A stretch of 64,000 nt of DNA, from the NCBI RefSeq assembly GCF_000194155.1, contig NZ_GL877878.1, forward strand, positions 918,974 through 982,973. The letters are read 5' to 3'. Source of the stretch: Saccharopolyspora spinosa NRRL 18395. Its GTDB lineage: Bacteria > Actinomycetota > Actinomycetes > Mycobacteriales > Pseudonocardiaceae. Positions 15,607 to 55,422 of this stretch are shown in pieces (positions within the stretch are counted from its first letter, which is position 1; each line of letters begins with the position of its first letter). The notes below the pieces were generated by a model that did no database searches, had not been told where the DNA came from, and saw only the letters and a program-made list of their open reading frames with translations. A program made the translations under genes and the position numbers.

Positions 15607-15672
15607 AAGACTTCGCGGTAACTTGGCGGTAACATGGAGCGCTGCTGGTGGTGTCTCGCAAAAGGGGTTGGA

Positions 15673-16428
15673 TTGTCCGGGTTCGGAACCGATGAGCAGG
15701 GTGGCAGTTGGCGGCCGGTCGCCCGGACGCGCACCTACGAGCTGGTCATCGAGCGGATCGAGGAGCAGATCGTCAGCGGTCAGCTGCACGTCGGCGACCG
15801 GTTGCCCCCGGAACGGGACCTGGCGCAGATGCTCGGCGTGAGCCGGGCGGCGGTGCGCGAAGCGTTCCGCGCGCTGGAAGCCCAGGGCGTGCTTCGGATG
15901 GCGGTCGGCACCGGCCCGGATTCCGGGACCACGGTGGCCGCGCTGCCGAGCCAGGCGTTGACGCGGTTGCTCCGGCTGCACGTCGCGCTGGCGAACTTCC
16001 CGCTGGCCGACGTCGTGCAGGCGCGGATCATGCTCGAATGCGAGAGCGTGCGCAACGCGGCGCAGCGCGCCACCCCGGATGTTCTCGAAGATCTGCGCAA
16101 GCTGCTGGACGCGATGGATGCCCCCGGCTGCGGCCGCGAGCGGTTCAACGACCTGGACACCGAGTTCCACGTGGCCATCGCCGAGGCAGGCGGCAACCGG
16201 CTGGTCGCGGACATGACGATCGCGATCCGCGAGTCGATGCGCCGACCGCTGCTGACAGCCTTCGACGACCTGGGCGAGGAGTGGTTCCCGATCGCCGACG
16301 GGCTGCGCCACGACCACCGGATGATCCAGCAGGCGCTCGAAGCCGGCGACGCCACCGCGGCCGAGGAGCAGATGGAACGCCACATCCGCGGCTTCTACCG
16401 CAACGGCTGTGCGCCGGACCTGGCGTAG
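15673..16428 (+). CDS. GntR/FadR-family regulator of the lut operon
   Basis: About 251 residues. The N-terminal winged helix reads YELVIERIEEQIVSGQLHVGDRLPPERDLAQMLGVSRAAVREAFRALEAQGVL in pattern, the GntR DNA-binding domain. The C-terminal all-helical FCD domain has the metal-binding residues D..FH..IA and H..I. The TTG at 15673 with AAGGGG five bases upstream is preferred, while an ATG at 15634 is also possible. Position and operator suggest an LldR-like lactate-responsive repressor of lutABC. Confidence 0.87.
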   Translation: MSGFGTDEQGGSWRPVARTRTYELVIERIEEQIVSGQLHVGDRLPPERDLAQMLGVSRAAVREAFRALEAQGVLRMAVGTGPDSGTTVAALPSQALTRLLRLHVALANFPLADVVQARIMLECESVRNAAQRATPDVLEDLRKLLDAMDAPGCGRERFNDLDTEFHVAIAEAGGNRLVADMTIAIRESMRRPLLTAFDDLGEEWFPIADGLRHDHRMIQQALEAGDATAAEEQMERHIRGFYRNGCAPDLA

Positions 16429-16432
16429 GCGA

Positions 16433-17224
16433 TCAGCCCCGCCCTACGGCACGGGAGGTCGGTGCGACGGCGAGGTCGGCGCCGATCCGGGCCGCGGTCG
16501 CCAGCAGCGGTGGCAGGAGGTTCTGGCGCGCGTCCTCGGGGCTGCTGCGGGAGGCGTGCGAGGAGATGTTCACCGCCGCGACCACCCGGTTCGAGCGGTC
16601 CCGGATCGGGGCCGCGATCGAGCGCAGGCCCGCCTCCAGCTCCTGGTCCACCAGCGCCCAGCCCTGCTCGCGGATGCGCGCCAGCTCGGCCTTCAACTCC
16701 GCCGGAGTCGTTATGGTGTGCGGGCCCAGTGGCTCCAGGTCTACTTCGGACAGGTAGTCGTCCAGCTCGGCGGGGCCGAGGTCGGAGAGGATGACCCGGC
16801 CCATCGAGGTGGCGTAGGCGGGGAACCGGGTGCCGATGTTGATCGACACCGTCATGATCCGCGAGGTGGGCACGCGGGCGACGTAGACGATGTCCGGACC
16901 GTCCAGCACCGACACCGACGCCGACTCGTGCACCTCCACCACCAGCCGCTCCAGGTACGGCTGGGCGATCTCCGGCAGCGACACGCTGGACAGGTAGGCG
17001 AAGCCCAGCTCCAGCACGCGCGGGGTCAGCGCGAAGGCCCGTCCATCGGTCGATACGTAGCCGAGGTGCACCAGGGTGTGCAGGAACCGGCGGGCCGCCG
17101 CGCGTGACATACCGGTCGCGCGGGCGACCTCGGACAGCGTCATCTCCGGATGGGACTCGTTGAACGCGCGGATCACCAGGAGCCCGCGTGCCAGCGACTG
17201 GACGTAACCGCTCGTGTCGGACAC
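16433..17224 (-). CDS. pcaR: IclR-family regulator, PcaR/PcaU type
   Basis: A 263-residue IclR regulator. The N-terminal winged helix contains VQSLARGLLVIRAF and MTLSEVARATGMSRAAARRFLHTLVHLGY. The C-terminal effector domain has VGTRFPAYATSMGRV-like and LRSIAAPIRDRSNRVVAAVNIS segments. It is closest in style to PcaR/PcaU/PobR. It begins with GTG 26 bases after the pcaC stop as the last gene of the pca operon, so it is likely co-transcribed with its targets. Family members usually activate pca genes with protocatechuate or 3-oxoadipate as effector. Confidence 0.85.
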   Translation of the reverse strand: MSDTSGYVQSLARGLLVIRAFNESHPEMTLSEVARATGMSRAAARRFLHTLVHLGYVSTDGRAFALTPRVLELGFAYLSSVSLPEIAQPYLERLVVEVHESASVSVLDGPDIVYVARVPTSRIMTVSINIGTRFPAYATSMGRVILSDLGPAELDDYLSEVDLEPLGPHTITTPAELKAELARIREQGWALVDQELEAGLRSIAAPIRDRSNRVVAAVNISSHASRSSPEDARQNLLPPLLATAARIGADLAVAPTSRAVGRG

Positions 17225-43767: not shown

Positions 43768-44676
43768 ATGGTCTTGTCGCTGCCTGATAGCGCGATGTCC
43801 GGCGGGGATTCCGAAAACTCGGACGGGATGCCACGTTCGGGTGACTTTCCGCGGAGTGCCGCGGTGCTCGCCCGGATGCGGTCGGAGAACTTCCCGGTCG
43901 CCGCCCGGATCCTGCCACACGGGCTGCGGCGGCACCTGCACGCCCTGTACGGCTTCTTCCGGCTGGTCGACTACGCCGGCGACGAGGCTCCCGGCAACCG
44001 CGCGGCGCTGCTCGACTTCCTCGAAATCGATCTCAAGCGCGCCTACCAGGGAACGGCTCGGATTCCGATGCTGCGTGCGCTGACACCGACGGTCGCCGAG
44101 TGTGCCATTCCGCACGAGGTGCTGGTCAAGTTGATCGACGCCAACCGGCAGGACCAGCAGGTGCGGCGCTACCGCAGCTTCCCGGACCTGCTCGACTACT
44201 GCGCCCTGTCCGCGAACCCGGTCGGGGAAGCGGTGCTGCACGTCTTCGGGCGGGCCGAACCCGCGCTGATCACGCTGTCCGACCGGATCTGCAGCGCGCT
44301 GCAGATCCTGGAGCACTGCCAGGACATCGCCGAGGACTACCGCCAGGACCGGGTGTACCTGCCGACCGACGACATGCAGCGCTTCGGCTGCGAGGAACCG
44401 GAACTGGTCGCCGACCGCGCCTCGACGATGCTCTGCGGGCTCGTGAAGTACGAAGTGGACCGCGCGCGCCGGATGCTCGACGCCGGCGCACCGCTGGTCA
44501 GGGAGCTGTCCGGGATGGCCCGGATAGCGGTAGCCGGTTATGTCGCGGGTGGACGTGCCACGGCGGCCGCGTTCGCAGCGGCGAAGCACGATCCGCTCGG
44601 CTTCGACGTGCGGCCGGGGCGGGGGCGAACCTTCGCCGAATGGGGGCGGTTGTACGTGTTGGGAGGCATCTGGTGA
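43768..44676 (+). CDS. hpnC: Squalene synthase HpnC
   Basis: A 302-residue trans-isoprenyl diphosphate synthase of the HpnC type. It has ENFPVAARILPHGLRRHLHALYGFFRLVDYAGDEA in pattern (first Asp-rich site DYAGD), NRQDQQVRRYRSFPDLLDYC and the second site EHCQDIAEDYRQDRVYLP. HpnC converts presqualene diphosphate to hydroxysqualene. AGGAGG lies before the ATG. It is the first gene of the hopanoid operon and overlaps hpnD by four bases. Confidence 0.93.
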   Translation: MVLSLPDSAMSGGDSENSDGMPRSGDFPRSAAVLARMRSENFPVAARILPHGLRRHLHALYGFFRLVDYAGDEAPGNRAALLDFLEIDLKRAYQGTARIPMLRALTPTVAECAIPHEVLVKLIDANRQDQQVRRYRSFPDLLDYCALSANPVGEAVLHVFGRAEPALITLSDRICSALQILEHCQDIAEDYRQDRVYLPTDDMQRFGCEEPELVADRASTMLCGLVKYEVDRARRMLDAGAPLVRELSGMARIAVAGYVAGGRATAAAFAAAKHDPLGFDVRPGRGRTFAEWGRLYVLGGIW

Positions 44677-45518
44677 CCGATTGGGCCCGGATCCGGGACG
44701 CCTACCTGGAGTGCGAGCAGATCACCCGGGAACAGGCGCGAAACTTCTCCTACGGGATCCGGCTGCTGCCCGGCCCGAAGCGGCGGGCGCTGTCGGCGGT
44801 CTACGCCTTCGCCCGCCGCGTGGACGACATCGGCGACGGCGACCTGCCGCGCGAGGAGAAGCTGCGGCGCCTGAAGCAGGCCCGCGAGGCGATCCACGCC
44901 GCCAGCATCGGCGCCGCTGACCCGGTGCTGGCGGCGCTGGCGGACTCGGCGGCGCGCCTGCCGGTGCCACTGGCGGCCTTCGACGAGCTCATCGACGGCT
45001 GCGAGGCCGATGTCCGCGGCGTGCGCTACGGCACCTTCGAGGAGCTGCTGAACTACTGCCGCTGCGTGGCCGGATCGATCGGGCGGCTGTCACTGGGCGT
45101 GTTCGGCACCATCGACCCGCCCACGGCCGAGCGACGCGCGGACGCGCTCGGTGTCGCGCTGCAGCTGACCAACATCCTGCGCGACATCCAGGAGGACCAG
45201 CTGGCCGGGCGGGTCTACCTGCCTGCCGAGGACCTCGAGAGGTTCGGCGTTCGGCTGGAGCCGGGCAACGGGCGGGCCGAGGACCCGGAGAGGTGGGACC
45301 GGCTGATCCGATTCCAGGCCGCCCGCGCCGAGCAGTGGTACGCCGAAGGGCTTCGGCTGCTGCCGATGCTCGACCGGCGCAGCCGGGCTTGCTGCGCGTC
45401 GATGGCGGGCATCTATCACGAACTGCTGGCCCGCATCGCCGCCGACCCGCGTGCGGACCTCGCTGTCCGGCTGGCGGAAGGCGGGCGTCGCGGCCCGGTC
45501 GCTGGCGGGGATGGCACC
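44673..45518 (+). CDS. hpnD: Presqualene diphosphate synthase HpnD, 3' end frameshifted into hpnE
   Basis: The catalytic part is intact: REQARNFSYGIRLLPGPKRR, the first Asp-rich site RRVDDIGDGD and the second NILRDIQEDQLAGRVYLP. It condenses two farnesyl diphosphates to presqualene diphosphate. The normal HpnD ending, SGWRKAGVAARSLAGMAP and stop TGA (45520-45522), is present in the +1 frame. The frame in use changes near 45450 after MAGIYHELLARIAADP. As sequenced, therefore, HpnD reads without a stop into HpnE, making one 735-residue frame (44673-46880). Ancestrally the two overlapped as GTGA. Confidence 0.85.
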
Positions 45519-46880
45519 GTGAGCCGGGGGCGCGTGGTGGTGGTCGGCGGCGGCTTGGCCGGGGTGACGGCGGCGCTGCGCTGCGCCGAACTGGGATTCG
45601 AGGTCGAGCTGCTGGAGACGCGCCCCAGGCTGGGCGGCGCGACTTACTCCTTCGTGCGCGGCGACCTCGTGGTGGACACCGGGCAGCACGTCTTCCTGCG
45701 CTGCTACACCGCCTACACCGGCCTGCTGCAGCGGCTCGGCGTCGCCGACTCGATCAGCGTGCAATCCCGGTTCCACGTCCCGGTGCTCAGCCCCGGCGGC
45801 CAGGCTTCGGTGCTGTGCCGCTGGAACCTCCCGGCACCGGCACACCTGACCCCGACGCTGCTTGGGTACCGGATGCTGACCGCGGCGGAACGGATGCGGG
45901 TGGCGCGCACCGCGCTGGCGCTTCGGCGGCTCGATCCGGCCGACCCCGCGCTGGACGACATCAGCCTCGGGCAGTGGCTGAGGCAGCGCGGCGAGTCGCC
46001 GCGCGCCGTCGATGCGCTGTGGGGGTTGTTGGCGTTGGCGGCGCTCAACGCCGAGCCCGCGGACGCGTCGATGGCGTTGGCGGCCAAGGTGTTCCGGTTC
46101 GGCGTGCTGGACACCACCGACAGCGCCGACATCGGGATTCCCCAGGTGCCGCTGGGACAATTGCATGGCGAAGCCGCCCACCGCACGTTGCTGGAAGCGG
46201 GTGTCGGCATCCGGCTCCGCTGCAAGGCTCGGGCGATCCGCCGCTCCGGCGAGGGTTTTCAGGTCCCGGTGCGCGAGAACACCGGGGAATCGGTGCTCAC
46301 CGCGGACTCGGTCGTCGTCGCGGTCCCGCACCGCGCGGCGGCGACGCTTGTGGCGGACCTCCCGATACCGGGCGTGGCGACGTGGGCGAAGCTGTCCGCA
46401 GCGCCGATCGTCAACGTGCACGTGCTCTACGACCGGCCGGTTACCAGCCTCGAGATGGCCGCTGTCCTGGACTCCCCGGTGCAATGGGTCTTCGACCGGA
46501 CATCCATCTCGGGCGCACCCCGCGGGCAGTACCTGGTCGTCTCGCTTTCCGCCGCCCAAAAGCACGTCCAGGCGCGCACCGATTACCTGCACGACCTGTT
46601 CATCCCCGCGCTGCGGCAGGTCTTCCCGCACGCCCGCAGCGCGCGGGTCCTCGACTTCTTCGTCACCCGCGAGCCCAGCGCGACCTTCCGGCAGGCGCCC
46701 GGCACCGGCGCGCTCCGGCCGCAGGCCCGCACCGCGGTGCCCGGCCTGGTGCTCGCCGGGGCGTGGACCGCCACCGGATGGCCCGACACGACGGAGGGAG
46801 CGGTGCTCAGCGGTACCCGCGCCGCCGAGGTAGTGGATCTGGACCAGCGCTCGCAACACGGCGTGGAGGTGACCGCATGA
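45519..46880 (+). CDS. hpnE: Hydroxysqualene dehydroxylase HpnE
   Basis: About 453 residues from GTG at 45519. The N-terminal FAD-binding Rossmann motif is VVVVGGGLAGVTAALRCAELG, followed by LLETRPRLGGATYSF and GQHVFLRCYTAY. The C-terminal FAD segment is VPGLVLAGAWTATGWPDTTEGAVLSG. It reduces hydroxysqualene to squalene. The sequence is complete. Because the upstream hpnD stop is out of frame, it may be made as an HpnD-HpnE fusion or from its own GTG. It overlaps the next gene as ATGA. Confidence 0.92.
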   Translation: MSRGRVVVVGGGLAGVTAALRCAELGFEVELLETRPRLGGATYSFVRGDLVVDTGQHVFLRCYTAYTGLLQRLGVADSISVQSRFHVPVLSPGGQASVLCRWNLPAPAHLTPTLLGYRMLTAAERMRVARTALALRRLDPADPALDDISLGQWLRQRGESPRAVDALWGLLALAALNAEPADASMALAAKVFRFGVLDTTDSADIGIPQVPLGQLHGEAAHRTLLEAGVGIRLRCKARAIRRSGEGFQVPVRENTGESVLTADSVVVAVPHRAAATLVADLPIPGVATWAKLSAAPIVNVHVLYDRPVTSLEMAAVLDSPVQWVFDRTSISGAPRGQYLVVSLSAAQKHVQARTDYLHDLFIPALRQVFPHARSARVLDFFVTREPSATFRQAPGTGALRPQARTAVPGLVLAGAWTATGWPDTTEGAVLSGTRAAEVVDLDQRSQHGVEVTA

Positions 46881-47875
46881 CGACCGTTCTGCCACCAGCC
46901 CTGCAAACCGCCAGGGAAGCGGTGGATCCGGTGCTGCGCAACGCAGTGGACCGACTCGACCCGGACACCCGCCGGGTGTGCGAGTACCACTTCGGCTGGA
47001 GTGACGCCGACGGCTCCCCGGGCGGTGGTGGTGGCAAGGCCCTGCGGCCGGCGATGGTGCTGCTGTCCGCGCGCAGCGTTGCCACCGCGGGGGATCCGGT
47101 CGTCGCGGCGGCCGCGGTGGAACTCGTGCACAACTTCTCCCTGCTGCACGACGACGTGATGGACGGCGATACCTCCCGCCGCCACCGGGCGACCGCGTGG
47201 ACCGTCTTCGGAAAACCGGCAGCGCTGCTCGCCGGGGACGCGTTGCTGGCGCTGTCCAACGAGATCTTGCTGGAATCGCCGTCGCGCCATGCGGCGGCAG
47301 CGGCCCGGTCGCTGTCCATCGCGACCCGCGTCCTGATCGCCGGGCAGGCCGCCGACCTGGACTTCGAGTGCCGCGCCGAGGTCGGGCTCGACGAATGCCT
47401 GCAGATGGCGCACGACAAGACCGCCGCGCTGCTCGCCTGCGCCTCATCCATCGGCGCGCTCCACGTCGGCGCGCGGCGGGAAACCGTGGCCCGGCTGCAC
47501 GCCTACGGCACCGAACTGGGGATGGCCTTCCAGCTCGTCGACGACCTGCTCGGCCTGTGGGGCGACCCCGACGTCACCGGCAAGCCCGTGCTGTCCGACC
47601 TGCGAGCCCGCAAGAAGTCGGTGCCGGTCGTGCACGCGCTGAGCTCCGGGACCGCCGCCGGCGATCGGCTGCACCGGCTGTACGTGCAGGCCGAACCGCT
47701 CACCGAGGACCAGCTGCAGGAGGCCGCCGAAATGGTGCAGCGGGCCGGCTCGGCGGACTGGACCCGCCAGGAGTGCGAGCGGCGGCTGGCCGCCGCCGAC
47801 GAGTACTTGCCCGATGGCGACGCGACCGAGTCGTTGACCGAGCTGGCCGAGTTCATCGTACGGAGGAAGCTTTGA
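46877..47875 (+). CDS. Polyprenyl diphosphate synthase of the hopanoid operon
   Basis: A 332-residue trans-polyprenyl synthase. The substrate site is GGKALRPAMVLLSARS, the first Asp-rich motif is LLHDDVMDGD with RRHRATAW after it, and the second is FQLVDDLLGLWGD. It probably supplies farnesyl diphosphate (or geranylgeranyl diphosphate) to HpnD; chain length cannot be decided by eye. It starts inside the hpnE stop and ends four bases into shc. Confidence 0.9.
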   Translation: MTTVLPPALQTAREAVDPVLRNAVDRLDPDTRRVCEYHFGWSDADGSPGGGGGKALRPAMVLLSARSVATAGDPVVAAAAVELVHNFSLLHDDVMDGDTSRRHRATAWTVFGKPAALLAGDALLALSNEILLESPSRHAAAAARSLSIATRVLIAGQAADLDFECRAEVGLDECLQMAHDKTAALLACASSIGALHVGARRETVARLHAYGTELGMAFQLVDDLLGLWGDPDVTGKPVLSDLRARKKSVPVVHALSSGTAAGDRLHRLYVQAEPLTEDQLQEAAEMVQRAGSADWTRQECERRLAAADEYLPDGDATESLTELAEFIVRRKL

Positions 47876-49766
47876 CCGATCAGTTGCAGCAGCCCATCCG
47901 CACCGGAGTGGTTTCCGCGTCCGGCGCGCGAGCCGATGCCCGGACCGCGCTGGCCGCCGGCCGCGACTACCTGCTCTCCCTCCAGCACCCCGACGGCTGG
48001 TGGAAGGGCGAGCTGGAGACCAACGTGACGATGGACGTCGAGGACCTGTTGCTGCGGCAGTTCCTGGGCATCCGCACCGCCACCGAGACCGAGCAGGCCG
48101 CCCGCTGGATCCGCTCGCAGCAGCGCCCCGACGGCACCTGGGCAAACTTCTACGGCGGACCCGGCGACCTGTCCACCACGGTGGAGGCCTACACGGCGCT
48201 CAAGCTCGCCGGTGACGACGTCGACGCCGAGCACATGGCGGTGGCGCGCGACTGGATCCTGGCGTGTGGCGGGCTGGAGGCCACCCGGGTGTTCACCCGG
48301 ATCTGGTTGGCGCTGTTCGGCGAATGGTCCTGGGACGAACTCCCCGCGATGCCGCCGGAACTCGTGCTGCTGCCGAAGTGGTTCCCGCTGAACGTATCGG
48401 ACTGGGGGTGCTGGGCGCGGCAGACCGTCGTCCCGCTGACCGTGGTGTGCACGCTGCGACCATGCCGCAACCTCGGCATCGACGTGCGCGAACTGCGCAC
48501 CGGACGCGCGGCGGGGCAGGTCCGTCCACAGTGGTCGTGGAAGTACGGTTTCCACGCCCTGGACCGGGTTCTGCACGGCTACCACCGACGCCCGCTCAAG
48601 GGGCTGCGCAAGCACGCGATGCTGCGCGCGGCGGAGTGGATCGTGGCGCGGCAGGAAGCCGACGGCTCCTGGGGCGGGATCCAGCCGCCGTGGGTGTATT
48701 CGCTGCTGGCGCTGCACCTGCTCGGCTACCCGCTGGACCACCCGGTGCTGCGGCACGGGCTCGCCGGGTTGGAGGGTTTCCTGATCCGCGAGCAGACCCC
48801 GGCCGGTCCGGTGCGGCGGCTGGAGGCCTGCCAGTCCCCGGTGTGGGACACCGTGCTCGGCATGCAGGCGCTGCGCGATGCGGGGGTGCCCGCCGACCAC
48901 CTGTCGCTGCGCCGGGCGACTGATTTCCTGCGTCGGTGCGCCGCCCGAACCTGCCGCCCGGGGGCGGCTGGGCGTTCGAGTTCGACAACGACGGCTACCC
49001 GGACATCGACGACACCGCCGAAGCGCTGCTCGCGCTGAACCGGGTCGAGCACCCGGACCGGGAGGTGGTGCGTGGCGCCATCGAGCGTGGTGTCCGCTGG
49101 TTGCGCGGCATGCAGTCCCGAGACGGCGGCTGGGGCGCTTTCGACGCCGACAACACCCGGGCGCTGGCGCGCAAGCTGCCGTTCTGCGATTTCGGCGAGG
49201 TGATCGACCCGCCGTCGGCCGACGTGACGGCGCACGTGGTGGAGGCGCTGGCCGCGCTGGGGCACGACGATCGGGTGGTGCGACGGGGCGTGAAGTGGCT
49301 GCTGGACAACCAGGAGAAGGACGGGTCCTGGTTCGGCCGTTGGGGCGCGAACCACGTATACGGCACCGGAGCCGTGGTCCCGGCGCTGGTCCGGGCGGGC
49401 CTCGAACCCGATCACCGGGCACTGCGGCGGGCGGTGCGGTGGCTGGAACGCCACCAGAACGCAGACGGTGGCTGGGGCGAGGACCTGCGCTCCTACCGCG
49501 ACCCGAAGTGGATCGGCCGGGGCGATTCCACGGCGTCGCAAACCGGCTGGGCGTTGTTGGCGCTGCTGGCGGTGGGCCGGCACGGCACCGATGCGGTGCA
49601 GCGCGGCACGCAGTACCTGGCCCGCACCCAGCGGGTGGACGGCGGTTGGGACGAACCGCAGTTCACCGGCACCGGGTTCCCCGGCGACTTCTACATCAAC
49701 TACCACCTGTACCGGGTGATCTTCCCGCTCACCGCGCTCGGGCGGTACCAGCGTGCTGGGGACTGA
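47872..49766 (+). pseudogene. shc: Squalene-hopene cyclase, disrupted by deletion and frameshift
   Basis: The N-terminal part (47872 to about 48933) has the QW repeats and SHC landmarks: LQHPDGWWKGELETNVTMDVE, WARQTVVPLTVV, EADGSWGGIQPPWVYSLLAL. At 48930-48936 the frame changes, and about 11 codons found in other SHCs between the ATDFLR and VRRPNLPPGG segments are missing. The C-terminal part (48936-49766) is in another frame and holds the catalytic DxDD (YPDIDDTAE), FDADNTRALARKLPFCDFGE, GSWFGRWGANHVYGTG and the final FSINYHLYR-type segment. The two halves together make a full cyclase that would turn squalene into hopene. As read, the N-terminal frame stops at 49038. Either hopanoid synthesis is lost, or the deletion is an assembly fault. 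Confidence 0.85.
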
Positions 49767-49767
49767 G

Positions 49768-50400
49768 ATGACTGCGATGCGACTGCTGGTCTGCGCCCCG
49801 TTGGGCCTCGAAGCCCGAGCCCTCCAGGAGGCGCTTGGTCCTGGAACCGTGCGCCGCACGGGCTACGGGCGGCACCGCAGCGCCCGCAGCGCGGCTTCGC
49901 TTGCGGGGGCGGACTTCGACGTCTTGGTCGTCGCTGGTCTCGCCGGCGGGGTCGGCGCCGAGGTATGCACCGGCGATGTGATCGTGGCCGATGAGCTCCG
50001 CGGTCAGCGCGGCACCGTGCGCTGCCCAGCGGCACCGTCGTTGGCAGCGGAGTTGCGCCGCGCCGGGTTCCCGGTGCGGCGCGGGCCGATCGCCACTGCC
50101 GGTCGCGTGGTGCACGGCGCCCAACGTGCCGAGCTGGCCCGTGCTGGCGTGCTCGCCGTCGACATGGAGTCGGCATTGCTGGCCGAGGCAGCAGCGGGAC
50201 GTCCGCTCGGCGTCGTGCGGGTCGTGGTGGACACCGCACGGCAACCGCTGCTCCGGCCCGGCACGCCGGGTCGCGCGCTGACCGCGCTCGCCCGGCTGCA
50301 CGCCATCGGCTCGTGCCTGCCGCGGTGGGGCCGCACCGTCCTGCGGGATCGCACCGTCCCGCCCGAAATCCGATCCGCCGCACCCGAGGAGGTGTCCTGA
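49768..50400 (+). CDS. hpnG: Adenosylhopane nucleoside phosphorylase-like HpnG
   Basis: A 210-residue purine-nucleoside-phosphorylase-like protein. It has FDVLVVAGLAGGVGAEVCTGD (phosphorylase glycine-rich segment) and ARAGVLAVDMESALLAEAA, with the nucleobase-recognition MES. HpnG removes adenine from adenosylhopane to give ribosylhopane. The start ATG follows directly after the cyclase stop. It ends with TGATG sharing a base with hpnH. Confidence 0.88.
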   Translation: MTAMRLLVCAPLGLEARALQEALGPGTVRRTGYGRHRSARSAASLAGADFDVLVVAGLAGGVGAEVCTGDVIVADELRGQRGTVRCPAAPSLAAELRRAGFPVRRGPIATAGRVVHGAQRAELARAGVLAVDMESALLAEAAAGRPLGVVRVVVDTARQPLLRPGTPGRALTALARLHAIGSCLPRWGRTVLRDRTVPPEIRSAAPEEVS

Positions 50401-51401
50401 TGGGCATTCCGATGCGCCAGGCGATCCGCGTCGGCGCTTACCTGGTGAAGCAGAAGCTCGCGCGCCGCGAGAAGTTCGCCCTGACCTTGGAGCTGGAGCC
50501 GCTGTTCGCGTGCAACCTGGCCTGCGCGGGCTGCGGCAAGATCCAGCACCCGGCGAACGTGCTCAAGCAGCGGATGCCGGTCGAGCAGGCCGTCGCGGCG
50601 GTGGAGGAGTGCGGCGCGCCGGTGGTTTCCATCGCCGGCGGCGAGCCGCTGATGCACCCCGAGATCGAGCTCATCGTCGACGAGCTGGTCAGGCGCAAGA
50701 AGTTCGTCTACCTGTGCACTAACGCGCTGCTGCTGCCCCGCAAGATCGACAAGTTCCGGCCGTCGCCGTACTTCGCGTGGGCCGTGCACATCGACGGGCT
50801 GGAGGAGCGGCACGACGAGTCGGTGTGCAAGCAGGGCGTGTTCGCGCAAGCGGTGGACAACGTCAAGGAGGTCCAGCGGCGCGGGTTCCGGGTGACCACC
50901 AACTCGACGTTCTTCACCTCCGACACCCCGCAGTCGGTCATCGAGGTGCTGGAGTACCTCAACAACGACCTCCGGGTCGACCAGATGATGCTCTCGCCGG
51001 CCTACGCCTACGACAAGGCACCCGACCAGGAGCATTTCCTGGGCGTGACGGAGACCCGCGAGCTGTTCCGGAAGGTCTTCGCCGACGGGCGACGCAAGAA
51101 GTGGCGTTTCAACCACTCGCCGCTGTTCCTGGACTTCCTGGAGGGCAAGGTCGACTTCCAGTGCACGGCCTGGGCCATCCCGTCGTACTCGTTGTACGGC
51201 TGGCAGCGGCCGTGCTACCTGATGAACGACGGATACGTGGGGAGCTACCAGGAGCTGCTGGCCGACACCGACTGGTCCGCCTACGGGCGCGGCCGTGATC
51301 CGCGTTGCGCCAACTGCATGGCGCACTGCGGCTACGAACCGACCGCCGTGCTGGCGACTATGGGCTCGCTGCGCGAGTCGATCCGCGCGTTGCGCGGGTG
51401 A
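50400..51401 (+). CDS. hpnH: Adenosylhopane synthase HpnH (radical SAM)
   Basis: A 333-residue radical-SAM protein. The 4Fe-4S motif CNLACAGCGK (CxxxCxxC) is near residue 37, then VSIAGGEPLMHPEIE, the SAM-binding GGE, and YFAWAVHIDGLEERHDESVC. A C-terminal DPRCANCMAHCGYEP Cys cluster is also typical. It adds 5'-deoxyadenosine to diploptene. GAGGAGG lies before the ATG. It is the last gene of the operon and converges with the short-chain dehydrogenase ten bases on. Confidence 0.94.
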   Translation: MGIPMRQAIRVGAYLVKQKLARREKFALTLELEPLFACNLACAGCGKIQHPANVLKQRMPVEQAVAAVEECGAPVVSIAGGEPLMHPEIELIVDELVRRKKFVYLCTNALLLPRKIDKFRPSPYFAWAVHIDGLEERHDESVCKQGVFAQAVDNVKEVQRRGFRVTTNSTFFTSDTPQSVIEVLEYLNNDLRVDQMMLSPAYAYDKAPDQEHFLGVTETRELFRKVFADGRRKKWRFNHSPLFLDFLEGKVDFQCTAWAIPSYSLYGWQRPCYLMNDGYVGSYQELLADTDWSAYGRGRDPRCANCMAHCGYEPTAVLATMGSLRESIRALRG

Positions 51402-51411
51402 CCGGCCGCAG

Positions 51412-52137
51412 TCAGCCGAAGCGGCGGGCGAGGCGGTGGAAGGTGCCGGGCAGCAAGCCCTGCAGCCGGGCGGGCGCGATGAGCCACTTTGGGACGAACA
51501 CCTCTTCCGCGTCCCGCTCCACGCCGCGCACCAGAGCCGCGGCCACTTCCTGCGGGCTGACCATGCGCGGGAAGCGGCGGTCGTAGCGTCGCCCGGCGAA
51601 GAAGGGCGTGCGGACCGCGCCGGGGAACACCGTGGTCACGCCGATCCCGTCGCGGTTGCGGAGGCTCGCGCCGAAGGCCCGCAAGCCCGCTTTGGTCGCC
51701 GAGTAGACCGCCTCGCCGGGCACGCCCACCACGGCGATCGAGGCGACGAACACGACGTGCCCGCACCGCCGCCGCAGGTCGGGGAGCGCCGCGCGGGTCA
51801 GCAGCATCGGCGCGGTCAGGTTCACCGCCGTCAGGGCCTCGATCCGCTCCGGCGGCATCGCGCTCAGGTCGCCGGCCCAGCCGATGCCCGCGCTGTGCAC
51901 CAGCAGATCGACCTCGCGGGCGGCCGCGGCGGCCCGGTCGAGCCCGGTCGGATAGGTCAGGTCGGCGGGCACCGGTTCGCCGCCGGTGCGCTCGGCGACC
52001 TCGGCAAGCCGCTGCTCGTCGCGGCCGACCAGCACGACCCGGCACCCTAGCGAGCTCAGCTCGGCGGCGGTCGCCGCGCCGATGCCCGAGGACGCACCCG
52101 TCACCAGCGCGGTGCGCCCGCGCACCGTCAGCCCCAC
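51412..52137 (-). CDS. Short-chain dehydrogenase/reductase
   Basis: A 241-residue classical SDR. The cofactor site is TALVTGASSGIGAATAAELS with an Arg in VLVGRDEQ suggesting NADP(H). The catalytic residues are Ser in FVASIAVVG and the Tyr-x-x-x-Lys YSATKAG. VFPGAVRTPFF closes the fold. It is the third gene of the operon with the glycosyltransferase/acyltransferase fusion and the DMT gene, overlapping the latter by ten bases. The C-terminal LIAPARLQGLLPGTFHRLARRF is common in SDRs tied to lipid or wax metabolism. Confidence 0.88.
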   Translation of the reverse strand: MGLTVRGRTALVTGASSGIGAATAAELSSLGCRVVLVGRDEQRLAEVAERTGGEPVPADLTYPTGLDRAAAAAREVDLLVHSAGIGWAGDLSAMPPERIEALTAVNLTAPMLLTRAALPDLRRRCGHVVFVASIAVVGVPGEAVYSATKAGLRAFGASLRNRDGIGVTTVFPGAVRTPFFAGRRYDRRFPRMVSPQEVAAALVRGVERDAEEVFVPKWLIAPARLQGLLPGTFHRLARRFG

Positions 52138-53050
52138 GACGAATCCGTCGTGCCGTCGTTGCGCTCGCGTTCCTCCATCGCCCGGCGCAGCTGCTCGCCC
52201 CGGCGAGTCAGCACCACGATCCCGCCGATGATCACCACGACGGAGATCACCTCGCCGACCAGGATCGTGGGGGAGGACTCGATACGCTCGCCCAGCCAGT
52301 TCACCCCGATCGCGGCCGCCACCAGCGGATCCACCGTGGTGATCACGGCCAGCGGGGGCGACATCAACCGGCCTCGCTGGAAGGTCTGCTGGCTCAGCAG
52401 GACCCCATCGGCCCGATCACGCACACCGCGTACAGCGACCAGTGGTGAAACGGCTCGGCGAGCCCGCCGCTGCGGAAGTGCCCAGCCACGACCTTGATCA
52501 GACCGGCGGGGACGTAGAACACGCCGGTGCCCCCAGCCATGCCGATCACCCCGACCTCGCCGGGCAGCCACCGCGCGGCCAGCAGCGAGACCACTATGAG
52601 CAGCCCGAGCGTCAGCGCCAACGGCACGATCGACGCCCCGGTGAACTCGTTACCCTGCCCGGACGGCCGCCCCAGCACCAGGAACGCGGACAGTCCGCCG
52701 ACGCAGGCCAGCCCGCCCAGCGCCAGCACCAGGTCCAGCTTGCGGTGCGCCAGCCATGCCGCGAACGCCGCGCCGAAGAGCACCGAGGTCACCAGCAACG
52801 GCTGCACCAGCACCAGCGGGCCGAAGGCCAGCGCCACCACCTGCAGCGACAGCCCGATGATCACGGTGCCGATGCTGAGCACCCAGATCGGCTTGCGGAC
52901 GAGGTCGAACAGCAAGCGGGGGCTCATCGTGCGCACCTTCGGCACCTGCTTGGTGACGCGGTGCTGGATCGCGCTGGCCAGCCCGAAGCTGGCCGCACCT
53001 AGGACGGCCGCCGGAACGGCCACGACGAGCACGGTGCCCTGCGCGCTCAC
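52128..53050 (-). pseudogene. DMT/EamA-like transporter with one missing base
   Basis: A DMT-superfamily protein of about 306 residues, ten membrane segments. The N-terminal frame (from GTG 53050) reads VAVPAAVLGAASFGLASAIQ through LYAVCVIGPMG and then meets a stop. In another frame the protein continues FLLSQQTFQRGRLMSPPLAV-like, with TTVDPLVAAAIGVNWLGERI, to the stop at 52128. Around 52395-52405 the minus strand has GGGG where one more G would restore ATG-GGG-GTC-CTG-CTG. This is the classic pattern of a homopolymer sequencing error, so the gene may be intact. It overlaps the fusion gene as GTGA. Confidence 0.8.
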
Positions 53051-55422
53051 CGCCGGTCTCCTCGCAGCTCGTCGAAGGCGTCGCGGAGGTGACCGGCGAG
53101 CTCGGTGGCCTCCGGCGCCAGCCCGGTGTCGGTGGTGATCCCGAACCCGATCCGCTCGCCCCAGCTGACAGCGCCGATCGCCACGCCCACGCCGTCTGCC
53201 AGCGACAGCACCGGCACGACCCCCGCGATGAGCGTCTCGCCGAGGTGGGTCGGACGACGCTGTCCCGGCATCACGGACACCACGGCGTTGAAGAAGCGAC
53301 GCTGGTAGATCTGCCGCACGACCCAAGCGTGCAGCGGCGCGGGCAGTACGCCAAGTGCCGCGAGCACGGCGCTGGTAGCGGCGGGCTGGCCGGTGCGGTC
53401 CGGCTCGGCAAGTCCGGCGGTGACCTCGGCGAGGCGGCGAGCTGGCACCATCGGCCCGACCGGCAGGTCGAGCGACAGCGAAACGGTGTGGTTGCCGGGC
53501 ACGCCGGTGCCCGCGCCGCCCCGCCCGGTGCGTGCGGTGCGCGGAACCATGACCCGGAACCGCTGGCCCGGTGCGGTGTCGCCGAGCGTCCGGTGCAGCG
53601 CCTCGGCCACCATGCCGAGCAGGAACGCCGTGCTGCTCACCCCGTGCGCGCGTGCGCAGGCGCGCACTTCGGCGGCCGGGAGCTCGACCTCCGCGTACGA
53701 CCGGTTTGGTGTGCTGCGCCCTGCCAGGCGGCTGGTCGGCGCGGGTCCGGCCCCCGTCAGACTCACCAATCCGCGCGCGACCTTCCGGGCTCGGCGGTAC
53801 CACGGCTGGTCGGCGCGACTCGGCGATGTCGCCGGATGCGGGCCGTCGCTAAGCAACCGCAGCAGCGTGCTGGTCACCGCGACACCGTCGCCCAGCGCGT
53901 GGTGCATCTTCGCCAGCAACGAGGCGTGGCCGGTGCCGGCGTCGTTGAGCAGCAGCAGCTCCCACGGTGGCAGATCCGTGCGCACCGGGGTGCCGAAGAA
54001 CTCCTCGATGATCGGATCCGCGCTCTGCCCGCCGTTCAGCTCGCGGCACCGCAGGTGATCACCGGCGTCGACCGCGTCGCTGTGAATCCACTGTGGCCGA
54101 TGACCGCGTCGCACGATCAGCCGTCGGGTCAGCATCGGCAATCCCGCTGCACGTTGGGAGATTCGCCGACCGATTGCTTCGCAGAGGTCCGATGTGGAGC
54201 GCTGCGGTCCTTCCATGTGCAGGACCGCGCCGGTGTGCTGGGAGATGACCGGGGTGGTGGCGTACACGAAGAACGCGTCCTGCGGGCGTAGCGGGCGGCG
54301 GCCGTGGTGGCGGGGCAGGTGCGCCAGCGCGGCCACCTGGTCGGTTAACTCGGCGGCCTGGCTGTGCTTGAGCGCCCGGTGTTCCCGCTGCGCGAGCTCG
54401 TCCGGCTCGGCCGCCCAGCGGCGCAACGTCCCGGTCAGATCGCTCTCCCGCAGGCACAGCTCGGCCAGCTCGGCGTCGGCCATGAGCTCGGCGTTCGCGC
54501 GCCCGTGCCCGGCGATCGGTTCGAACATCACCACGGCACGCCCGCAGGCCAGCGCCTCCAGCGCCGTGGCCCCGCCCGCGTTGGTCACCACCACGTCCGC
54601 GGTGGCCGTCAAACCGGGCATGTCAACGACCCAGCCCAGTGCGACGATCCGGTCGTCCGCGCGGTCGGCGAAGCGCCGTCGCAGCGCCGCGTTGCGACCG
54701 CAGGCCACGACGACGCGGTCGACTCCCTCGGCCAGCAGCGCCGCATCCACCGCGCGCTCGACGGAACCGAACCCGAGCGAGCCGCACGAGATCAGCACCG
54801 TGAAACCGGATTCCGGGAGCCCGAACGACCGCCGCGCCGCGGCCCGGTCGGCGGGCCGGAACGACGACACGACCGGCGGCACGCAGACCGCGCCGACGGC
54901 GTCCGGTTCCGCCCGCCGCATCGCCCGCAGGCTCGCCTCGCTCATCACGTAGTGCAGGTCGACCTCGGGGTAGACCCAGAACGGGTGCGGCGAGAAGTCC
55001 GACACGATCGCCGCCACCGGCATGTCCAGGCCGCCTCTGCGGCGCAGCCAGTCGAGCCCGGCGGTGCCCAGCGGATAGGTCGAGACGATCAGGTCCGGGG
55101 CGTGCTCGGCGATGGCCCGGCGCAGCAGCCGCCCGCTCCACGCGCCGACGAACCGGCGGGAGGCGTTGGCGAACCAGCGGTAGCGCCACAGCGACTCGTA
55201 GAAGAAGTCGTAGAGCCACGGCGTGGATTCGACGTTGGTGACGTAGATCCAGTTGAACGTCGCGGGCACCCACCGGCCCATCGTGCGCAAGGCGTCCAAC
55301 CAGGCGATTTCGCACCCCGGCCACACCCGCCGGGCCGCCTCCTCGACGGCGCGGGCGGTCGCGTTGTGGCCCTCGCCGATGGTGGCGCTGATCAGTAGCA
55401 CTCGACGCGGCTGGACGGTCAC
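53047..55422 (-). CDS. Glycosyltransferase (GT28/MGDG-type) fused to WS/DGAT acyltransferase
   Basis: A single 791-residue frame. Residues 1 to about 370 are a UgtP/MGDG-synthase-like glycosyltransferase: VLLISATIGEGHNATARAVE (acceptor/lipid loop), PDLIVSTYPLGTAGLDWL, VLISCGSLGFGSVERAVDA, and TNAGGATALEALACGRAVVM with FEPIAGHGRANAE (nucleotide-sugar site). From about 377 a complete wax ester synthase/diacylglycerol acyltransferase follows: RPLRPQDAFFVYATTPVISQ at its start, the catalytic HHxxxDG as KMHHALGDGVA near residue 507, VMVPRTARTGRGG, GNHTVSLSLDLPVGP and a C-terminal LADGVGVAIGAVSWGERIGF. There is no stop or frameshift between them. The predicted protein would glycosylate a lipid and acylate it, or another acceptor, with acyl-CoA. 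It is the first gene of a three-gene operon facing the hopanoid genes. Confidence 0.88.
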   Translation of the reverse strand: MTVQPRRVLLISATIGEGHNATARAVEEAARRVWPGCEIAWLDALRTMGRWVPATFNWIYVTNVESTPWLYDFFYESLWRYRWFANASRRFVGAWSGRLLRRAIAEHAPDLIVSTYPLGTAGLDWLRRRGGLDMPVAAIVSDFSPHPFWVYPEVDLHYVMSEASLRAMRRAEPDAVGAVCVPPVVSSFRPADRAAARRSFGLPESGFTVLISCGSLGFGSVERAVDAALLAEGVDRVVVACGRNAALRRRFADRADDRIVALGWVVDMPGLTATADVVVTNAGGATALEALACGRAVVMFEPIAGHGRANAELMADAELAELCLRESDLTGTLRRWAAEPDELAQREHRALKHSQAAELTDQVAALAHLPRHHGRRPLRPQDAFFVYATTPVISQHTGAVLHMEGPQRSTSDLCEAIGRRISQRAAGLPMLTRRLIVRRGHRPQWIHSDAVDAGDHLRCRELNGGQSADPIIEEFFGTPVRTDLPPWELLLLNDAGTGHASLLAKMHHALGDGVAVTSTLLRLLSDGPHPATSPSRADQPWYRRARKVARGLVSLTGAGPAPTSRLAGRSTPNRSYAEVELPAAEVRACARAHGVSSTAFLLGMVAEALHRTLGDTAPGQRFRVMVPRTARTGRGGAGTGVPGNHTVSLSLDLPVGPMVPARRLAEVTAGLAEPDRTGQPAATSAVLAALGVLPAPLHAWVVRQIYQRRFFNAVVSVMPGQRRPTHLGETLIAGVVPVLSLADGVGVAIGAVSWGERIGFGITTDTGLAPEATELAGHLRDAFDELRGDRR

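Follow-up and report, generated by a model that had tools for sequence, protein, structure and literature searches.

A glycosyltransferase–WS/DGAT acyltransferase fusion protein with a genomic tie to the hopanoid pathway in Saccharopolyspora spinosa and other Actinomycetota

Which lipid is acted on by a protein that carries a sugar-transferring and an acyl-transferring domain in a single polypeptide? The question is raised by a gene on the minus strand of a 64,000-nucleotide stretch of the Saccharopolyspora spinosa NRRL 18395 genome (contig NZ_GL877878.1, positions 918,974 to 982,973; "the window" below denotes this whole stretch), in which a glycosyltransferase (GT) of the GT28/MGDG-synthase type is joined to a WS/DGAT acyltransferase. 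Enzymes of this GT28-type group use nucleotide sugars to glycosylate lipid hydroxyls at the membrane surface, while WS/DGATs transfer an acyl group from acyl-CoA to lipid hydroxyls, using the HHxxxDG histidine as a base. A first-pass annotation made from the sequence had suggested diacylglycerol as the acceptor. The genomic context of the fusion and of its homologues leads us to propose instead that it is a bifunctional enzyme attaching both a sugar and an acyl group to the side chain of a C35 hopanoid, a reading to which we assign a probability of roughly 60%.

The gene starts with GTG at 55422 and its stop codon ends at 53047, confirming the unbroken 791-codon frame of the first-pass annotation. 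Pfam analysis of the whole protein (GT half, approximately residues 1-360; WS/DGAT half, residues 378-791) returned MGDG_synth (residues 19-169, 2.5e-17), Glyco_tran_28_C (208-350, 1.7e-8), WS_DGAT_cat (378-544, 5.1e-21) and WS_DGAT_C (643-786, 1.5e-15), all above cut-off, and together with the HHxxxDG motif these matches place the two halves in the UgtP/MGDG-type GT superfamily and the WS/DGAT acyltransferase superfamily, respectively. The GEGH, EPIAGHGRAN (residues 301-310) and HHxxxDG motifs were all found where they had been described. The further statement that every WS/DGAT landmark is present holds for the domains and HHxxxDG and is otherwise slightly overstated, the fusion having PPWE and SVMPGQ where the solved WS/DGAT 6chj has RPMWE and SNVPGP. 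Scores against curated whole-family models fell below cut-off, both for the wax ester/triacylglycerol synthase subfamily (TIGR02946, 186.8 of 309.95 bits) and for the diglucosyl-diacylglycerol synthases (PRK13609, 115 of 500 bits; PRK13608, 63.5 of 557 bits), and the two halves are therefore divergent members of their superfamilies.

By sequence, the GT half is nearest to the processive diacylglycerol glucosyltransferase 9wde and to MGD1 (4wyi), and the WS/DGAT half to 6chj and 7nxg. The fusion has in common with UgtP/YpfP and MGD1 the MGDG_synth and Glyco_tran_28_C domains and an aligned GxGH motif (profile E 1e-40 and 1e-34 for 9wde and 4wyi), yet it differs from them in carrying an acyltransferase, in its hopanoid context and in scoring below the cut-off of the diglucosyl-diacylglycerol synthase models. 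Moreover, unlike 9wde and 4wyi, which have a GQE stretch, the fusions carry HG in place of QE (73/73). This region probably contacts the donor sugar, and the exchange only hints at a different donor or a different geometry. With the WS/DGAT synthases 6chj and 7nxg the fusion shares WS_DGAT_cat, WS_DGAT_C and HHxxxDG, and differs in its altered SNVPG stretch and its TIGR02946 score. In a quick tree without bootstrap, as are all trees here, the fused WS/DGATs and related WS/DGATs linked to a PAP2 domain were split from three ordinary WS/DGATs of the same genome with 100% support in the Shimodaira–Hasegawa-like approximate likelihood ratio test (SH-aLRT); the outgroup consisted of these three rows, a further one (L002) having been dropped by the filter.

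The fusion is neither restricted to S. spinosa nor an artefact. Of 61 sampled genomes of relatives, a set dominated by a single genus (22/61), 28 carry a full-length match in a single frame, comprising all 22 genomes of that genus (the source genome included) and 6 of the 39 others. Of the 79 loci retained from a scan of named genomes, every one of them titled as belonging to Actinomycetota, 72 encode full-length fusions, two encode fusions cut by a contig end (L105, L111; L and G numbers are our handles for loci and genomes) and five encode stand-alone GTs (L099, L100, L104, L113, L114). Carriers include Saccharopolyspora, Actinopolyspora, Halopolyspora, Kutzneria, Prauserella, Pseudonocardia, Micromonospora and Actinopolymorpha, so that the fusion is present throughout the Pseudonocardiaceae and beyond. 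The first-pass annotation had considered that two separate genes might have been joined by a sequencing error; separate halves do occur in some relatives (L104, L113), but the intact fusion in 72 named loci excludes such an error. An assembly or frame error was likewise ruled out by gap-free alignment over 53047-55422 with a 95% identical relative (G005) and by the 28 intact relatives. A plasmid-borne origin was also considered, and no match was found in a plasmid collection at E 1e-60.

Both halves have been conserved. Among 73 aligned fusions, G16, G18, H19, E289, H306, G307, N310, H508, D512 and G513 are invariant, and H507 is changed once, in L083 (72/73). Of the 50 proteins of a further alignment (A2), all 50 matched MGDG_synth and both WS/DGAT domains and 45 matched Glyco_tran_28_C at E 0.001. 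The ratio of nonsynonymous to synonymous substitution rates (omega) for ten close pairs was 0.13-0.29 in the GT half and 0.20-0.41 in the acyltransferase half; judged from these ratios, both halves are under purifying selection. Degeneration of either half was rejected on account of the omega values and the retained motif residues. Domains, motifs and omega thus bear out the view that a single polypeptide combines a GT and a WS/DGAT acyltransferase, both of them conserved.

The neighborhood of the fusion points to the hopanoid pathway. Within 11 kb of the 74 fused named loci, hpnH was found at 63, shc (squalene-hopene cyclase) at 62 and any hopanoid-type gene at 67, the last count possibly holding a few carotenoid-type genes and the hpnH and shc counts being firmer; a dehydrogenase was present at 68 and a DMT-type membrane protein at 71. 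Neighbors were labelled with a gene caller of our own making and with BLAST/Louvain clusters that take their names from the genes of the window. In the sample of relatives, HpnH scored above cut-off in 28/28 genomes with the fusion versus 4/33 without it (Fisher p 2.6e-13), a test that ignores phylogeny, and when counted by genus in 7/7 with versus 4/31 without (p 2.6e-5). The fusion and hpnH lie on the same contig in all 28 genomes and within 12 kb of one another in 27 (median 1.8 kb), with whole shc genes or pieces of them accompanying the fusion likewise. Gene order and orientation around the fusion vary by lineage, for example between Saccharopolyspora, Pseudonocardia and Micromonospora, indicating that the association has survived rearrangement. 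Seven fused loci lack a nearby hopanoid gene, yet for five of them the genome encodes HpnH at another place (at a distance of 48 kb for L067 and approximately 22 kb for L080). Linkage to hpn and shc genes above chance across lineages, together with co-occurrence with the pathway in genomes, makes the fusion a member of the hopanoid gene set, and its genomic tie to the pathway is strongly supported.

From this tie and the domain content we infer the catalytic activities, the order of steps, the acceptor, the sugar, the acyl group and the roles of the neighboring dehydrogenase and DMT protein, as follows. HpnH and HpnG would generate ribosylhopane, which the short-chain dehydrogenase encoded beside the fusion would probably convert to bacteriohopanetetrol (BHT) or a similar polyol. 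The N-terminal GT half would then use a nucleotide sugar to glycosylate the hopanoid polyol, and the C-terminal WS/DGAT half would pass a fatty acyl group from acyl-CoA either to this sugar or to a hydroxyl still free on the side chain. The resulting acylated hopanoid glycoside may be carried across the membrane by the DMT-type protein. A hopanoid polyol is the better candidate acceptor because hopanoid genes neighbor the fusion at most loci and, in the sample of relatives, the fusion occurs only in genomes bearing HpnH. Both kinds of decoration exist, as N-acylglucosaminyl-BHT has been described from Alicyclobacillus (PMC8537080), and esters of BHT that carry one or two fatty acids have been described from Hypericibacter terrae (PMC12583986).

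Some relatives harbor the two halves apart or in other combinations. In Planosporangium (L104) the GT and the WS/DGAT are separate genes next to DMT genes and hpnC, and both group with Micromonospora fusions (SH-aLRT 99 and 98), suggesting a later split in which both parts were kept; in a locus from a metagenome-assembled genome (MAG, L113), a GT gene lies beside a partial WS/DGAT gene and converges with it. Two stand-alone GTs from Amycolatopsis (L099, L100) group with a fused protein from an Amycolatopsis MAG (SH-aLRT 99), which suggests loss of the acyltransferase. Among genomes with HpnH and no fusion, G047 and G060 have a stand-alone GT, two DMT genes and a dehydrogenase beside the cluster (L116, L118), the region in G041 is truncated because its contig is short (L119), and in G057 and G104 a WS/DGAT related to the fused type carries a PAP2_3 membrane domain instead of the GT and has hopanoid genes next to it (L117, L126). 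The latter proteins share with the GT fusion the related WS/DGAT half, the hopanoid neighbors and an adjacent PucR regulator, and differ in that PAP2_3 replaces the glycosyltransferase. This two-domain build, likewise undescribed, perhaps combines a phospho head group with acylation. A GT alone lies beside hopanoid clusters at L116, L118, L123-L125, L128 and L129; five of the seven regions fetched later were picked for a hit near HpnH and are therefore not independent support, while G380 and G218, HpnH-positive genomes picked without a listed hit, both have one of these GTs next to the cluster. A dehydrogenase of the same kind is present in eight of ten fusion-free hopanoid regions (L116-L119, L123-L126, L128 and L129, the exceptions being L119 and L126) and is therefore more widely part of the cluster than the fusion. 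A more ambitious proposal holds jointly that the fusion is a previously undescribed bifunctional hopanoid GT-acyltransferase making acylated hopanoid glycosides, that head groups in actinobacterial hopanoid clusters are built by a modular system pairing one WS/DGAT lineage with either a GT28-type GT or PAP2_3, and that the dehydrogenase is the missing ribosylhopane-to-BHT reductase; we offer it tentatively, at somewhat less than even odds.

Several observations weigh against hopanoid glycosylation and acylation by the fusion. No HpnH was found in the genomes of two fused loci, L085 and L105, both MAGs. In an independent class survey of 345 genomes, which scored the top two candidates per genome, HpnH was found in 83 and the fusion in two, namely the source genome and G269 (1.7 kb from hpnH); hopanoid genes thus also occur without it. 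In the compared part of that survey, 8 of 14 same-contig pairs of a GT of this family and hpnH are 54 kb to 5.7 Mb apart, and the GT homologues L035/L036, L121 and L122 lie outside hopanoid clusters with other partners. In 10/10 pairs evolution is faster in the acyltransferase half than in the GT half, and among solved structures the GT half is most closely related to diacylglycerol glycosyltransferases. This last point, along with the resemblance of the WS/DGAT half to 6chj and 7nxg, is what favors the suggestion of the first-pass annotation that the sugar and the acyl group go to diacylglycerol or to glycolipids made from it, or that the fusion directs diacylglycerol either to glycolipid or to triacylglycerol, the proximity of hopanoid genes then reflecting co-regulation of membrane lipids. 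The strong and repeated hopanoid linkage and co-occurrence argue otherwise, as do the HG found in all 73 aligned fusions at the GQE stretch and the scores far under the cut-offs of the diglucosyl-diacylglycerol synthase and WS/DGAT family models; in addition, four other WS/DGAT genes in the genome could serve storage lipid. Given the hopanoid neighbors and the restriction to HpnH-bearing genomes among the relatives, a diacylglycerol acceptor or switch is not supported, and we regard it as unlikely.

It is also conceivable that the fusion belongs to the hopanoid pathway with a single half acting on the hopanoid, for example with the GT producing a hopanoid glycoside and the acyltransferase acting on another substrate or serving only as a membrane anchor or partner-binding module, or with the acyl group going to the unglycosylated polyol. 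The invariance of H508, D512 and G513 and omega values below 0.42 argue for what should be a working acyltransferase, and we therefore consider this quite unlikely, even though GTs without a WS/DGAT beside hopanoid genes, WS/DGATs with PAP2 and no GT, the retention of the GT alone in the two Amycolatopsis loci, the faster evolution of the WS/DGAT half and the existence of BHT directly esterified with fatty acids (PMC12583986) would all accord with it. Since the families of hpnC, hpnD, hpnE and the polyprenyl synthase are shared with carotenoid and polyprenyl pathways, the substrate could instead be a carotenoid, a polyprenol or some other isoprenoid lipid that arises from these shared precursors, and acylated carotenoid glycosides are known compounds; the linked HpnH and squalene-hopene cyclase are specific to hopanoids, making this alternative very improbable.

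Hopanoid glycosylation and acylation by one protein would differ from the systems described so far. The acyl steryl glucosides found in plants and the acyl cholesteryl glucosides found in Helicobacter arise by glycosylation of a sterol-like lipid followed by acylation of the sugar, as proposed here, but there the steps are catalyzed by separate enzymes of other families, whereas here one fused protein would act on a presumed hopanoid acceptor. HpnI, which has a GT2 fold, differs in fold from the GT half of the fusion. The HpnI-HpnK-HpnJ route, which gives BHT glucosamine and cyclitol ether (PMC12583986), resembles the proposal in attaching a sugar to BHT and in being encoded in a hopanoid cluster, and is unlike the fusion in having no acyltransferase. 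HpnI (TIGR03472, E 1e-40) was detected in 0/61 genomes of relatives, in a search that also detected 0/14 controls, and the HpnJ model matched in 0/61. The first-pass annotation knew of no described enzyme of this build; the open-licence literature searched, which leaves most subscription papers outside its scope, likewise yielded no paper on the fusion, on a hopanoid-linked WS/DGAT or on the replacement of the GT by a PAP2 domain. That literature included a paper on Streptomyces orphan proteins (PMC13118837), and in the portions covered of two WS/DGAT genome surveys (PMC10351704, PMC6355812) there is no such architecture. Both domain families and the hopanoid pathway are already known; what appears to be new is the union of the two domains in a single protein linked to hopanoid genes.

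In the window, the fusion, the DMT-type gene and the short-chain dehydrogenase gene follow one another on the same strand and converge with hpnC-hpnD/E-polyprenyl synthase-shc-hpnG-hpnH (Table 1). The shc and DMT frames are broken here and hpnD and hpnE are merged, while in the 95% identical relative all four are intact, separate genes; the broken and merged frames may be errors of the assembly or else signs that the cluster is decaying in this strain. The polyprenyl synthase scored best with the model of a polyprenyl transferase that is a family-2 encapsulin cargo (414.3 of 450 bits, under cut-off).

Table 1. Features of the fusion gene and its hopanoid cluster (window positions), and PAP2_3-WS/DGAT fusions (positions within the named locus)
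Feature	Position	Strand	Remarks
GT28/MGDG-synthase-type GT + WS/DGAT acyltransferase fusion	53047..55422	minus	791 aa, single open frame
GT part, MGDG_synth + Glyco_tran_28_C	54373..55368	minus	Pfam span, residues 19-350
WS/DGAT part, WS_DGAT_cat + WS_DGAT_C	53065..54291	minus	Pfam span, residues 378-786
GEGH motif	55366..55377	minus	residues 16-19
HHxxxDG motif (HHALGDG)	53884..53904	minus	residues 507-513
DMT-family membrane protein	52128..53050	minus	overlaps fusion end; broken into 218 aa (52394-53050) and 98 aa (52128-52424); ~305-308 aa in relatives
Short-chain dehydrogenase/reductase	51412..52137	minus	third cassette gene; adh_short 1.8e-37; candidate ribosylhopane reductase
HpnH, adenosylhopane synthase	50400..51401	plus	TIGR03470 522.9 bits, cut-off 225.05
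HpnG-like phosphorylase	49753..50400	plus	best NCBIfam model TIGR03468 (HpnG) 68.5 bits, under cut-off 187.1
Squalene-hopene cyclase (shc)	47872..49766	plus	two overlapping frames; TIGR01507 pieces 326.6 and 397.7 bits, cut-off 431.1
Polyprenyl diphosphate synthase	46877..47875	plus	NCBIfam isoprenyl diphosphate synthase models, all under cut-off
HpnD + HpnE	44673..46880	plus	one frame; TIGR03467 (HpnE) 404.4 bits, cut-off 283.05; TIGR03465 (HpnD) 276.0 bits, cut-off 278.6
HpnC	43864..44676	plus	TIGR03464 262.3 bits, cut-off 250.45
PAP2_3-WS/DGAT fusion, L117	13345-15336	minus	beside hopanoid genes
PAP2_3-WS/DGAT fusion, L126	5945-7942	plus	beside hopanoid genes

Further genes were observed in the loci and genomes compared. 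Pseudonocardia hopanoid clusters contain another GT from this family as a stand-alone protein (L090, 8814-9944, minus strand, and 20 other loci of gene cluster C16); it is divergent from the fusion and perhaps adds a second sugar. A DUF3159/IspA-like membrane protein, its DUF3159 score just below cut-off, adjoins hpnH in Pseudonocardia and some other loci (L090, 8116-8790, plus; L037, 14042-14704, minus), and a PucR-type regulator lies between the hopanoid genes and the fusion in nine loci (gene cluster C33; L065, 8715-9929, plus). In L101 an HpnG-type phosphorylase is joined to LytB/IspH (15664-17175, minus); frames of like length and start form a 33-locus cluster, in which the domain scan covered L101. 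In L035 (721-2427, minus) and L036 (697-2487, minus), a related GT half is followed by an unrelated C-terminal part with what looks like a membrane segment. The source genome has four more WS/DGAT-like places without a GT match (C1:1599-2348, C2:1897218-1898330, C5:81855-83192 and C1:3223962-3225236).

Hopanoids are membrane lipids, geological biomarkers and the bacterial counterparts of cholesterol. A 2025 study states that the enzyme converting ribosylhopane to BHT is not established, and it reports fatty-acid esters of BHT in a main text that never uses the word "acyltransferase" (PMC12583986). The cassette described here provides named candidates for these side-chain steps, namely the dehydrogenase for reduction, the WS/DGAT for acylation and the GT for glycosylation, and suggests a hopanoid-tailoring branch of the WS/DGAT proteins, which are usually taken for storage-lipid enzymes. 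If the proposed function is correct, the products of the fusion, acylated hopanoid glycosides, would be a bacterial counterpart of acyl steryl glucosides.

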